In this document: in pieces, positions 12,202-32,538 of the stretch
How positions within the stretch are numbered: the first letter of the stretch is position 1
Layout of the letters: each line of letters begins with the position of its first letter
From: Acidimicrobiia bacterium
Lineage (GTDB): Bacteria > Actinomycetota > Acidimicrobiia > IMCC26256 > JAMXLJ01
DNA: 32,930 nucleotides
Assembly (NCBI GenBank): GCA_024281095.1
Contig: JAMXLJ010000020.1
Coordinates: forward strand, 1-32,930
Direction: 5' to 3'
The notes under the pieces: generated by a model
What the model saw: the letters and a program-made list of their open reading frames with translations, nothing else
Database searches by the model: none
Told to the model about the DNA's origin: nothing
Made by a program: the position numbers and the translations under genes

Positions 12202-12714
12202 TCAGCCCTCCTGCTCCAGACGGCGGAAACGCTCGAGCAACTCGCGTTCGCGACGCTGCATCGCCTCGGTCTCCTGCTCTTCGGCGTGGTCGTAGCTCAG
12301 CAGGTGCAGCACCCCGTGCACCACCAAGAGCGCGAGCTCGTCGTCGAGTGATCGGTGCCGCAGCTCCGCTTCCCGCCGCGCGTACGACGGACACACGACG
12401 ACGTCGCCGATCATCGCCGGCGGCTCGCCGGCCTCGCTCGGCGAGCCCGGCCCTCGGCCGCCCTGGTCGGGTTGGCGGCCGGCCGGCACGATGTCGTCGT
12501 CCATCGGGAACGCGAGCACGTCGGTGGGGCCCGTGCTGCCCAGGAAGCGTTCGTTCAGATCGGCGATCGCCTGCTCGTCGACGAAGATCAGTGACAGCTC
12601 CGCGCCGCCGGGTACCTGCTCCTCGTCCAGCACCATGCGCGCGAGCCGGACCCAACGCATGACGTCGACCGGAACGTCGCGCTGCTCGTCGGCCGCGAAC
12701 ACGTCGAGGCTCAT
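12202..12714 (-). CDS. ybeY: Endoribonuclease YbeY (rRNA maturation factor)
   Basis: Metal-dependent RNase needed for 16S rRNA 3'-end maturation and ribosome quality control. The 170-residue protein carries the zinc motif HGVLHLLSYDH with His133, His137 and His143, preceded by STGPTDVLAFPMDD. A Pro/Gly-rich loop of about 27 residues (74-100) is inserted between the FPMDD strand and IGDVVVCP; it contains VPAGRQP, recalling the LPAGRQ insert in CtaC. The ATG at 12714 and its GGAGGGAG ribosome site are both part of a repeated 68-bp element that fills the whole gap to phoH. phoH-ybeY-CNNM-era is a very common order. Confidence 0.94.
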   Translation of the reverse strand: MSLDVFAADEQRDVPVDVMRWVRLARMVLDEEQVPGGAELSLIFVDEQAIADLNERFLGSTGPTDVLAFPMDDDIVPAGRQPDQGGRGPGSPSEAGEPPAMIGDVVVCPSYARREAELRHRSLDDELALLVVHGVLHLLSYDHAEEQETEAMQRRERELLERFRRLEQEG

Positions 12715-12783
12715 GGCTCCCTCCGCTCCGACTCCAGAGGGCTTCGCCGAGCAGAGCCTCGCTCCGTCCGCACGGTACTCATG
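12712..12783 (-). repeat. Copy C of the 68-bp leader element (phoH-ybeY gap)
   Basis: Read on the minus strand, this stretch aligns without gaps to copy B at 20315-20382. I count 10 mismatches over 63 bases from GTGCGGACG to GGAGCCATGA. It begins right after the phoH stop and ends with the ybeY ATG. It contains a small open frame (ATG 12782 region, 23 codons, ending ERREP) whose TGA overlaps the ybeY start as ATGA. A GGCT...AGCC inverted repeat sits in the middle. Confidence 0.8.
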
Positions 12784-13737
12784 TCACGGTTTCTTTTCGC
12801 GCCGCTCGTAGGCGTCGACGATGTCCTGCACGATGCGGTGCCGTACGACGTCGCGCGATCCGAGATGCACGAACTTCAGATCGGGGATGCCGTCGAGCAC
12901 GTTCTCCAGCGCGGGCAGGCCCGAACGGCCGCGGCCCTCGGGAAGGTCGATCTGGGTGACGTCGCCGGTGACGACGATCTTCGACCCGAACCCGAGCCGC
13001 GTCAGGAACATCTTCATCTGCTCGGGGGTCGTGTTCTGCGCCTCGTCGAGGATGATGAACGAGTCGTTGAGCGTGCGGCCACGCATGTACGCGAGTGGCG
13101 CGACCTCGATCACGCCCCGTTCCATCAGCCGGGTGACCGCTTCGGGCTCGAGCATGTCGTAGAGCGCGTCGTAGAGCGGGCGCAGGTACGGATCGACTTT
13201 CGCGAGCACGTCACCGGGCAGGAAACCGAGCCGCTCCCCCGCCTCGACCGCCGGACGGGTGAGGATGATCCGGTTCACCTCTTTGGCCTGCAGCGCCTGC
13301 ACGGCGAGCGCGACGGCCAAGTAGCTCTTGCCCGTGCCGGCCGGGCCGATCGCGAACGTGACCGTGTTCTCGCGGACCGTGTCGACGAACCGCTTCTGGC
13401 CCGCGGTCTTGGGCCGTACCGACTTGCGCCCGCGCAGCACCTCCGTGGACAGCACTTCGCTCGGTCGCTGATCGGCCTTGAGCATCTCGATGGAGCGGCC
13501 GACGCCCTCACGGTCGAGATGGTGACCCTGCTCGAGGAGCATCACCATCTCCTCGAAGAGCTCGGCGACGCGTTCGGCTTCGTCCGCGTCTCCCGTCACC
13601 GTGATCTCGTTGCCGCGCACGTGGATGGAGACCGGGAACGCGCGCTCGACCATGCGCAGGAGCTCGTCCCGTTGCCCGAGAAGCCCGACCATCAAGTGGT
13701 TGCCCGGGACGAGGATCTTGACCTGGGTGGAGGACAC
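12784..13737 (-). CDS. phoH: PhoH-family ATPase
   Basis: Cytosolic P-loop ATPase of the PhoH/YbeZ group, thought to act with YbeY in RNA processing. The 317-residue protein has an N-terminal KH-like part (1-85, [17 protein letters not shown]), then the ATPase core. The core has Walker A GPAGTGKS (131-138), a [16 protein letters not shown] segment, Walker [10 protein letters not shown] (228-235) and [10 protein letters not shown]. It starts at GTG 13737; no other start codon lies in frame before the neighbouring HIT gene. Length is normal for the family. It is directly upstream of ybeY, separated only by the 68-bp element. Confidence 0.94.
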
Positions 13738-20246: not shown

Positions 20247-20382
20247 GTGCGGACGAAGCGGAGCTTCGCCGGGCGAAGCCCACACGAGCCGGAGCGGAAG
20301 GAGCCATGAACAACGTGCGGACGAAGCGGAGCTCCGCCGGGCGAAGCCCCCACGAGCCGGAGCGGAGGGAGCCATGAACAAC
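20247..20382 (+). repeat. Copies A and B of the 68-bp leader element, in tandem
   Basis: Copy A is 20247-20314 and copy B 20315-20382, a direct tandem duplication differing at a few positions; the first seven bases of a third unit follow (20383-20389). Each unit runs from GTGCGGACGAAGCGGAGC to GGAGCCATGAACAAC. It holds an inverted repeat (GCTTCGC-CGG-GCGAAGC in copy A) and ends in a strong Shine-Dalgarno plus ATG. A third, diverged copy precedes ybeY. The small frame in each unit ends in (R/K)EP-stop with TGA overlapping the next ATG. The units lie between the divergent sigma and dehydrogenase genes, but the ATG ending copy B is not in frame with the dehydrogenase. Confidence 0.88.
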
Positions 20383-20407: not shown

Positions 20408-21544
20408 ATGCCGACGAGCACGCTGCCGCCCGAGGCAGAGACGTACCGCCAGGAGGTACGCGCCTTCCTCGACGAGCACGCGCCCGGAGGTCGCTACCCG
20501 CCCGACTTCGGCCGCCGGCTCGCGCGGGCCGGCATGGTCGCACCCCACTGGCCCCGACCGTGGGGTCTCGATGCCTCACCGCTGCAGCAGCTCGCGATCG
20601 ACGAGGTGCTGCGCGAACGGCGAGCGCCACGGCCCGTCAACCCGATCGGCATCGGCTGGGCGGGCCCGACGTTGCTCGTCGCCGGTACCGACGAGCAGCA
20701 CCGGCGGTTCCTGCCGGGCATGCTCGACGGCTCGGAGATCTGGTGCCAGTTGTTCAGCGAGCCGGGCGCGGGCAGCGATCTTGCGTCGCTCACGACCCGA
20801 GCCGAGCGTGACGGCGCCGAGTGGGTCGTGACGGGCCAGAAGATCTGGACGACCGGTGCGCACGTCGCCCGCTACGGCATCCTGCTCGCACGCACGGACC
20901 CGGACGCCGAAGCACATCACGGCATCTCGTACTTCGTGCTCGACATGCAGTCACGGGGCATCACGATCCGACCCATTCGACAAATGGACGGGTCGGCCGA
21001 TTTCAACGAGGTGTTCCTCGACGGTGTGCGGATCCCCGCATCGTGTCTCGTCGGTGACGAGCACGACGGATGGCGCCTCGCGCGCGTCACGCTCGGGAAC
21101 GAACGGGTCTCGTTGTCGGGTGAGGGCGCGTTGTGGGGCATGGGGCCGACCGCGAACGACCTCGTCGAGATCGTTCGGCAGCACGGCGGCACGACCGACC
21201 CCGTGCTCAGGCAGCGCATCGCGGCGCTCTACGCCGAGGCGGCCGTGCTCGTGTTGATCCGCATGCGGACGCTCGCAGCGCGTCTGCGCGGGCTCGAACC
21301 GGGCCCCGAAGCGTCAGTGCGAAAGGCGCTCGCGGACGAGCACGGCCAGCGCGTCATGGCGCTCGCCGTCGAGCTCGCCGGGCCGTACGGAATGCTCGCG
21401 GATCGGGGACCGTTCGGAAGTGCGACGACGACGTGGGCCCAGGGTTACCTCTTCTCGCCCGCGTTGACGATCGGCGGCGGGACCGCGGAGGTTCAGCGCA
21501 ACATCATCGCCGAGCGCGTGCTCGCCCTCCCACGCGACGCCTGA
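20408..21544 (+). CDS. Acyl-CoA dehydrogenase
   Basis: FAD enzyme that oxidises an acyl-CoA at the alpha-beta bond, in fatty-acid or related side-chain degradation. The 378-residue protein has the family signatures FSEPGAGSDLASL (116-128) and VTGQKIWTTGAHVARYGILLART (from 141), and the C-terminal GGGTAEVQRNIIAERVLALPR. The pattern recalls the FadE proteins of actinobacteria that act on bulky substrates, but substrate and catalytic base were not established. ATG 20408 is the first usable start because a stop in frame lies at 20390; no Shine-Dalgarno precedes it. It stands alone on the plus strand, divergent from the sigma gene and downstream of the tandem 68-bp elements. Confidence 0.9.
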   Translation: MPTSTLPPEAETYRQEVRAFLDEHAPGGRYPPDFGRRLARAGMVAPHWPRPWGLDASPLQQLAIDEVLRERRAPRPVNPIGIGWAGPTLLVAGTDEQHRRFLPGMLDGSEIWCQLFSEPGAGSDLASLTTRAERDGAEWVVTGQKIWTTGAHVARYGILLARTDPDAEAHHGISYFVLDMQSRGITIRPIRQMDGSADFNEVFLDGVRIPASCLVGDEHDGWRLARVTLGNERVSLSGEGALWGMGPTANDLVEIVRQHGGTTDPVLRQRIAALYAEAAVLVLIRMRTLAARLRGLEPGPEASVRKALADEHGQRVMALAVELAGPYGMLADRGPFGSATTTWAQGYLFSPALTIGGGTAEVQRNIIAERVLALPRDA

Positions 21545-31467: not shown

Positions 31468-31481
31468 CGAACATGTGTTCG
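31468..31481. promoter_or_regulatory. LexA (SOS)-box-like sequence
   Basis: CGAAC-ATGT-GTTCG fits the Gram-positive LexA consensus CGAAC-RNRY-GTTYG at every defined position. It lies in the 135-base gap between leuS (70 bases before its start) and the tRNA-Ala gene (53 bases before). It could control the plus-strand tRNA/endonuclease unit or leuS, or be chance; a 10-base exact match is not negligible by chance in 33 kb. Confidence 0.5.
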
Positions 31482-31493
31482 ACATGCGAGAGA

Positions 31494-31522
31494 TTCGAAG
31501 CGCGCATGCGTGCTGGTACGGT
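31494..31522 (+). promoter_or_regulatory. Candidate tRNA-Ala promoter
   Basis: TTCGAA (31494-31499) and TACGGT (31517-31522), spacing 17, place transcription start about five bases before the mature tRNA. TACGGT fits TAnnnT; the -35 is only a partial match. Confidence 0.35.
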
Positions 31523-31533
31523 TGGTGAGCCCT

Positions 31534-31608
<75 letters not shown>

Positions 31609-31628
31609 CCGATTTCTTCCAGCAACTC

Positions 31629-32111
31629 CTGTCGAGTTGGCGCCTCACCGGATTCACGCTGGCAGGACTCGTGGCAGGCGAGGGCGCCTTCGTCGTCACC
31701 ACGAATCCGCCTCCGTATCGCGACGGGTCGCTGCGGAAGCGGTTCGTGTTCCAAGTCGCGATGGCGACCCGCGACAGGCCTCTGCTTGTCGCGTTGCAAT
31801 GCTTTCTCGGCGTCGGGTCCATCAGCGACCGGCCACCGAGACAGACGCACTGGGAACCAATCAGCAGGCTGACGGTCAGTTCGCGTCGCGCGCACCGCGT
31901 CGCCACCATCCCGCTCGCAACCCAATTCCTTCTGCCCTGCGCCAAGCGAGACCAGTTCGAGCGATGGCACTCGGAGTTCAACGCATACGAAGCTGCCCGG
32001 CCGACGCGCTGGGGGCTCGGCCCGTCGCCGTGCTCCGTGCCCGGATGCGGCCGCCCGGTCCGAGGCCGCGGGCTCTGTCGGTCGCATTATTACCGTGCGA
32101 CCGGCTACTGA
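31629..32111 (+). CDS. LAGLIDADG homing-endonuclease-like protein 1, start codon unclear
   Basis: About 160 residues from the CTG at 31629. A LAGLIDADG motif, LAGLVAGEG (11-19), has the acidic Glu in place, followed by the usual beta-rich half-domain (RFVFQVAMATRDRPLLVALQCFLGVGSI) and a KRDQFERWHSEF helix. The tail PCSVPGCGRPVRGRGLCRSHYYR is a Cx4Cx9Cx2H zinc knuckle. With one motif it should work as a dimer, perhaps with its neighbour. No ATG, GTG or TTG lies in frame between the tRNA end and the motif (GTG 31671 is inside it). The frame is open back through the tRNA to ATGs at 31506 and 31473. So it is started by CTG, started upstream, or a remnant. Base composition looks less GC-biased than its neighbours. 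Confidence 0.72.
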   Translation: MSSWRLTGFTLAGLVAGEGAFVVTTNPPPYRDGSLRKRFVFQVAMATRDRPLLVALQCFLGVGSISDRPPRQTHWEPISRLTVSSRRAHRVATIPLATQFLLPCAKRDQFERWHSEFNAYEAARPTRWGLGPSPCSVPGCGRPVRGRGLCRSHYYRATGY

Positions 32112-32538
32112 CGCGGCCGCCTGGCTGACGGGATTCGTCGTCGCGGAAGGGTGCTTCACCGGGGCGTCGAACGGCAGCGACTTCACCTTCGCCGTCGGCC
32201 TCGGCGCGACCGATGGTGACACGTGCGAGCTGTTGCACGAGTTCTTCGGTGTCGGCGCCGTGAGGCGGTACGGCCGGCGCAAGGCTCATTACGACGACGA
32301 AGTCACGTTCAGCGTGCGCGCCGTTCCGGAACTTCTCTCAGTCATCGTGCCGTTCATGGACGAGCACCTGCCTGCGTCGTACAAGCGGACGCAGTACGAG
32401 GCGTGGCGCTCCCGGCTGTTCGACTACTGGGAGCACCGGGCGAAGCGGGTACGGCCGTGCAGGGTCGAAGGCTGTGACACCCCGCGACGCGCGCACGGGT
32501 TGTGCCGGCATCACCTCTATGAGCAGAGGCGCTACTAG
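32095..32538 (+). CDS. LAGLIDADG homing-endonuclease-like protein 2
   Basis: A 147-residue paralogue of the preceding protein. The motif LTGFVVAEG (11-19) with catalytic-type Glu is followed by CF and the strand FTFAVGLGAT. LLHEFFGVGAVRRYGRRK aligns with LLVALQCFLGVGSI of protein 1, and YKRTQYEAWRSRLFDYWE with its KRDQFERW helix. The tail PCRVEGCDTPRRAHGLCRHHLY keeps the same Cx4Cx9Cx2H spacing (Cys122, Cys127, Cys137, His140). The start is GTG 32095, overlapping the end of protein 1 by 17 bases, so the two are probably made together and could form a heterodimer. DNA cleavage is inferred from the family only. Confidence 0.8.
   Translation: MRPATDAAAWLTGFVVAEGCFTGASNGSDFTFAVGLGATDGDTCELLHEFFGVGAVRRYGRRKAHYDDEVTFSVRAVPELLSVIVPFMDEHLPASYKRTQYEAWRSRLFDYWEHRAKRVRPCRVEGCDTPRRAHGLCRHHLYEQRRY

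Follow-up and report, generated by a model that had tools for sequence, protein, structure and literature searches.

How can the whole spacer between two genes consist of a repeat that also brings the ribosome site and the start codon of the downstream gene? This question is raised by the junction between a phoH-like gene and ybeY in an Acidimicrobiia contig, of which we analyzed a stretch of 32,930 nucleotides (hereafter, the window). A sequence-only reading of the window had described a dispersed repeat of 68 bp at this junction, found again as a tandem pair at 20247-20382, that carries a small reading frame coupled to the host gene and belongs to no familiar class.

On the minus strand, the TGA of the phoH-like gene (12784-12786) is followed by a single C, then by ATGAGTACC, GTGCGGACGGAGCGAGGCTCTGCTCGGCGAAGCCCTCTGGAGTCGGAGCGGAGGGAGCC and ATGAGC, in which the ATG is the ybeY start. 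The element opens with GTGCGG and closes with GGAGCGGAGGGAGCC, so that, as had been read, its last bases carry the ybeY ribosome site and ATG, and a 23-codon frame (here called the relay frame) ends on a TGA overlapping that ATG. The relay frame begins at an ATG 1 nt downstream of the phoH-like TGA (Table 1). The likeness of the three window copies was borne out as well, the ybeY copy and tandem copy B differing at 10 of 63 aligned bases (84.1% identity, E 2.9e-8 for the window alone). The unit length was not: the constant element measures 62 or 59 bp including the start codon, and 68 bp is the tandem period with a 9-bp spacer such as ATGAACAAC. Each tandem copy reads ATGAACAAC from its final ATG. 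The pair sits between divergent genes for a sigma-70 factor and an acyl-CoA dehydrogenase, and the relay frame of copy 2 has no coupling at -4 nt to the latter. The last ATG of the pair (20374) and the dehydrogenase start (20408), 34 nt further on, are in different frames, so that this gene does not receive its start codon from the pair.

Table 1. Element copies, their parts and their neighboring genes in the window
Feature	Position	Strand	Basis or remark
Element core, type I, 62 bp	12712..12773	-	GTGCGGACG...GGAGCGGAGGGAGCC plus ATG of ybeY
Relay frame, 23 codons	12711..12782	-	Translation; its TGA overlaps the ybeY ATG (ATGA)
Upstream arm ATGAGTACC, putative target-site duplication	12774..12782	-	Holds the relay-frame start codon; flank comparison
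Downstream arm ATGAGCCTC, first ybeY codons	12706..12714	-	Sequence; flank comparison
Shine-Dalgarno-like GGAGG within the element	12720..12724	-	5 nt upstream of the ybeY ATG; sequence
ybeY (endoribonuclease YbeY), downstream gene	12202..12714	-	PF02130, E 1.1e-34
phoH-like gene (PhoH-like ATPase), upstream gene	12784..13737	-	PF02562, E 3.8e-95
Element core, type I, tandem copy 1	20247..20308	+	R1 58.9 bits
Element core, type I, tandem copy 2, period 68	20315..20376	+	R1 61.7 bits
Spacer ATGAACAAC separating the tandem copies	20306..20314	+	Sequence; found again, with all 9 bases, at 20374-20382
Relay frame of tandem copy 2, MNNVRTKRSSAGRSPHEPERREP	20306..20377	+	Translation; stop 30 nt upstream of the acyl-CoA dehydrogenase ATG
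Acyl-CoA dehydrogenase gene, 3' of the tandem pair	20408..21544	+	PF00441, PF02770, PF02771

Elsewhere in the window, at 31473-32538, two adjacent, overlapping reading frames carry LAGLIDADG_1 domains; as the first overlaps a tRNA gene (31534-31608), its true start is probably further downstream.

Because a BLAST-type search of the genome missed the ybeY copy, we used a profile model (R1, built from the first copies found by DNA search of the genome, threshold 25 bits). In the 4.39-Mb assembly R1 returned 64 copies of at least 25 bits, mostly 59 or 62 bp long, together with several tandem arrays of period 65-68, so that the repeat is dispersed as proposed. The copy at 12712-12773, itself among the 14 sequences behind R1, is the top-scoring match genome-wide (65.3 bits, E 2.6e-17). 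Two subtypes share the near-constant ends GTGCGGACG (5') and GAGGGAGCC (3'). In type I, 59 bp precede the start codon, for a total of 62 bp, and the frame reads VRTERSSARRSPLERERREP up to its stop; in type II, 56 bp precede it, for a total of 59 bp, and the frame reads VRTELRPGRMPGRAQRREP up to its stop. Alignments of the ends GTGCGGACG and GGGAGCC showed that they are not inverted repeats of each other. Could the likeness reflect nothing but purine-rich ribosome-binding sites arising by chance? The 3' end is indeed rich in purines, although for a 14-bp purine pattern on its own the window shows no more than marginal enrichment. Against this stand full-length matches over 62 columns, with E down to 1e-17, and the constant spacing of the ends at 59 or 56 bp; the 64-copy family refutes chance similarity, to which we give practically no probability.

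The family is associated with gene starts. In 29 of the 64 copies, the 3' end adjoins the start of a same-strand open reading frame of 100 aa or more, compared with 8 of 64 in a mirror control (5' end, opposite strand) and 12% of random positions, a baseline taken from the window only. A start codon directly 3' opens a reading frame of at least 150 aa in 17 of 50 terminal copies, which is an undercount with mechanical calls of reading frames, versus 1.1% at random (also a window-only baseline). None of the outcomes that would have undone the sequence-only reading, namely three copies only, no preference for starts or mere purine runs, was thus encountered. What did not survive is the notion that each copy provides some host gene with its start codon: by the mechanical tests about half of them, including the tandem pair of the window, do not adjoin a gene start. 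The genes downstream of filled sites include ybeY, argB, rodA, a response regulator, cydB, a P450, a mutase and menD (names other than ybeY and phoH were taken from translations), and many copies lie within operons, at stop-start overlaps.

Copies with a following start codon end in GGAGGGAGCC and DTGA, where DTG opens the next gene and TGA closes an internal frame of ~20 codons that generally starts at a second, upstream DTGA. This upstream start is in frame with the overlapping TGA in 29 of 35 copies and out of frame in 6. A coupling-compatible length is kept by 27 of 29 copies with DTGA compared with 10 of 22 other copies (Fisher P 3e-4), in line with the proposal of a repeat with its own Shine-Dalgarno sequence and coupling frame. 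Across 16 type I copies, diversity along the relay frame is highest at third positions (3.77 versus 1.83 and 1.50, P 0.026), and the synonymous share of differences peaks in this frame. Both observations are a modest sign that the relay frame may be translated; its conservation among copies is in part due to common descent. At one site (C158:67-126, L029), the relay frame continues into the next gene, giving the N-terminal extension VRTERSSAGRSRLERERREP-MSVVKI.

An inverted repeat had been reported in each unit; we found it to be strongly conserved, in the 59-bp subtype only. In 27 type II sequences from this genome and a same-genus relative (G001), 94.9% of cells pair (shuffles, 80%), and changes on both sides occur in 10 of the 13 pairs, which none of 500 shuffles reproduced and which was lost on sliding the partner. 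No covariation appeared in the first mixed alignment of the family because type I is without the type II hairpin: no conserved fold or type II-like structure was found among type I copies, and for the phoH-ybeY copy folding did not surpass that of shuffles (z 0.31). The compensatory changes indicate that in the 59-bp subtype structure matters at the DNA or RNA level, as it would if an attenuator, a riboswitch or a protein-binding hairpin had been copied, as a regulatory 5' leader, to genes under common control. We consider such an origin unlikely, since the downstream genes look functionally unrelated, many copies sit at stop-start overlaps inside operons, type I lacks the fold, and neither the window copy nor 13 element loci gave a match of the element to any Rfam family. 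A palindromic repeat of the REP/BIME type, mobilized by a RAYT (Y1) transposase, would also take the form of an imperfect hairpin dispersed in tens of copies, as the 59-bp subtype does. Its probability is lower still, given the coding frame, the target-duplication-like flanks described below and a search for Y1_Tnp (PF01797) that had no match in this 98% complete genome and was positive in 5 of the 14 genomes used as controls.

By its PhoH matches, the genome belongs with metagenome assemblies of Acidimicrobiia. When 296 genomes of the class were searched with R1, under stricter filters and with few scored candidates per genome, this was the only one to give matches exceeding 35 bits. A structure model of the hairpin core (R2), searched in 58 genomes of the order, gave 57 copies in this genome, 65 in the same-genus relative, 10 and 11 in two other families and 12 to 38 in one genus of a fourth family, with a few copies in further genomes and zero in most of the 58. 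The fourth-family copies mostly have other ends (TCGACC) and mostly lie 6-29 nt from starts. Hairpin relatives in other families of the order (L288, L229, L231, L065 and L254) end in TCGACC or CGACCC and lie at gene junctions. One of them (L288) has the ATGA relay anatomy again, with the duplicated gene start ATGAAGATC on both sides; another (L254) is located at the start of the gene MSVDFTLPPEVE, similar to a filled gene in the present genome (C70, MSIDFTLPADVE).

We compared the flanks of the element. In 32 copies, the bases 3' of the upstream and downstream DTGA gave 93 matches versus 62.3 in shuffled pairs, and none of 20,000 shuffles scored as high; in the 18 non-tandem copies there were 46 matches versus 31.3 expected, again unequaled in 20,000 shuffles. 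Flank pairs such as GTGAGTACC/ATGAGTACC and GTGAGAACC/ATGAGAACC illustrate a similarity that resembles a 9-bp target duplication. The putative duplicated flanks are imperfect at several sites, phoH-ybeY included, where both arms have little in common past ATGAG.

Orthologous gaps were expected to be empty in relatives, and they are. In the same-genus relative, argJ-argB reads ACGTC-GTGA-CGTCG, where the present genome has ACGTC, ATGAGCGCC, the element and ATGAGCATGACGTCG; the two-component histidine kinase-regulator junction and the cydAB junction are reduced to a bare GTGA and a bare ATGA, respectively; and pbpA-rodA holds a single copy of the start that is duplicated here. In about fifteen Acidimicrobiia relatives, phoH and ybeY meet in an ATGA or GTGA overlap. 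At two loci, pbpA-rodA and C41, the duplicated start differs by synonymous codons; the upstream and downstream gene starts that differ in this way at C41:18736-18794 (L038) and C135:6938-6999 (L021) are MSTI, encoded with TCG or AGC, and a ~36-bp repeat encoding YDLIVRGGDVV. Such differences are not explained by simple recent target duplication. In the same-genus relative itself, the phoH-ybeY junction (L257, G001:C1:67279-67418) is occupied by a repeat of another, modular kind (ATGAGCGAGCGAGCC...GCGGATACATGAGC), which has 51 matches across its genome and of which many copies start on TGA.

Taken together, we think it likely, on the evidence of sequence comparison, that the element is a MIRU-like, non-autonomous mobile repeat that inserts at DTGA, duplicates about nine bases and relays translation to the downstream gene. 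Insertion would occur at DTGA motifs, chiefly where a start overlaps or nearly touches the stop of the preceding gene, and an enzyme would duplicate about nine bases (DTGANNNCC) in the process. The 5' arm would retain the old start codon, which would now open a relay frame of 20-25 codons through the element; the last codons of the element would supply the Shine-Dalgarno sequence (GGAGGGAGCC), and the TGA of the frame would overlap the duplicated start (DTGA). The gene start would thereby be restored, with two translational couplings in series in place of one, and insertion should therefore be nearly neutral for the downstream gene. We saw neither a transposase nor a transposition event, nor any polymorphism within the species. 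Transposition, translation of the relay frame and near-neutrality are what we infer from these comparisons; a gene hosting the element at its start signal probably still works.

The same distribution might arise with no target preference if the element landed almost anywhere in intergenic DNA and its coincidence with start codons were a property of survivors, DTGA insertions that keep coupling being tolerated and the rest purged. This accords with the half of the copies located elsewhere, with the mixed lengths of those that have no following DTGA, and with the hairpin copies of two further genomes (G030 and G096), which mostly lie 6-29 nt before starts and not exactly on them. Survivorship is a possibility that we take seriously yet find doubtful, because in most copies at gene starts DTGA is where the putatively duplicated flank bases begin, and it also opens many of the genome's tandem spacers, which suggests that the motif is the site itself.

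There is also a wider proposal that we offer tentatively and hold to be somewhat less than probable. Translation-relay mobile repeats could be general and recurrently evolved in Actinomycetota and not a mycobacterial oddity; those of Acidimicrobiia could derive from a covarying hairpin family, in which the form at gene starts acquired a Shine-Dalgarno end and a relay frame under selection, while a second repeat, modular and unrelated, sits at phoH-ybeY in the same-genus relative. With ~64 copies, a hairpin relative and one genus that has both filled and empty sites, the idea of mobile elements hiding in translational coupling becomes testable. Gene callers should also be warned that, at junctions of this type, an element can be the source of start codons, short open reading frames and C-terminal tails.

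MIRUs (mycobacterial interspersed repetitive units) are treated as a mycobacterial peculiarity, and their mobility rests on sequence comparison. DTGA was reportedly given as the MIRU target by Supply et al. in 1997. In the wording of a 2025 review that cites this study, these apparently mobile elements insert at 'start codons', with their ORF coupled to the gene at -4 nt, and insertion probably leaves expression intact (PMC12548453). Mycobacterium tuberculosis has 41 MIRU loci and a rnc-fpg junction that is either filled or empty (PMC2734929), and MIRUs of 77 and 53 bp lie between senX3 and regX3 (PMC4213456). With this anatomy already published (PMC12548453), the class is not new, contrary to what the sequence-only reading had supposed.

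The present family shares with MIRUs the short (40-100 bp) dispersed and tandem repeats at co-directional gene junctions, the internal small ORF with an ATGA overlap (-4 nt) to the next gene, the end on the start codon of that gene (in some but not all copies), orthologous junctions both filled and empty (here, DTGA-type overlap sites that are empty in relatives) and a two-component operon among the host sites. Some of the MIRU-like loci that we examined have an ATGA-to-ATGA frame, e.g. MTRAYDDAERSDEEESRR with its stop before a gene starting MTSVLIVEDEE. Unlike MIRUs, the family includes a subtype with a covarying hairpin, has a putative duplication of more than four bases and is hosted by Acidimicrobiia. 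In 16 MIRU-like loci, R1 found nothing at E <= 10. A putative MIRU motif was absent from this genome and matched one genus only among 396 genomes of the phylum. MIRU-like working with no sequence match makes this a separate family of the same kind and, by sequence comparison with the MIRU-like set, the family itself is new. A literature search for similar elements outside mycobacteria returned nothing relevant, the term 'MIRU-like' occurring only in a Trichodesmium paper.

Other known systems are less close. REP/BIME elements (RAYT) are likewise small, dispersed and palindromic, but no Y1 transposase was found in the present genome, and its elements are associated with gene starts and contain a coding relay frame. 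ORF-bearing MITEs (Rickettsia palindromic elements, ERIC, YPAL) are short, non-autonomous repeats with a reading frame (PMC2229807, PMC10969869) that are sometimes fused to host genes, as the in-frame C158 copy is here; unlike them, the present elements have no terminal inverted repeats, are G+C-rich and carry a frame that normally stops on the next start instead of fusing. A sequence-unrelated family that follows the same insertion logic in a distant class suggests convergence with MIRUs.
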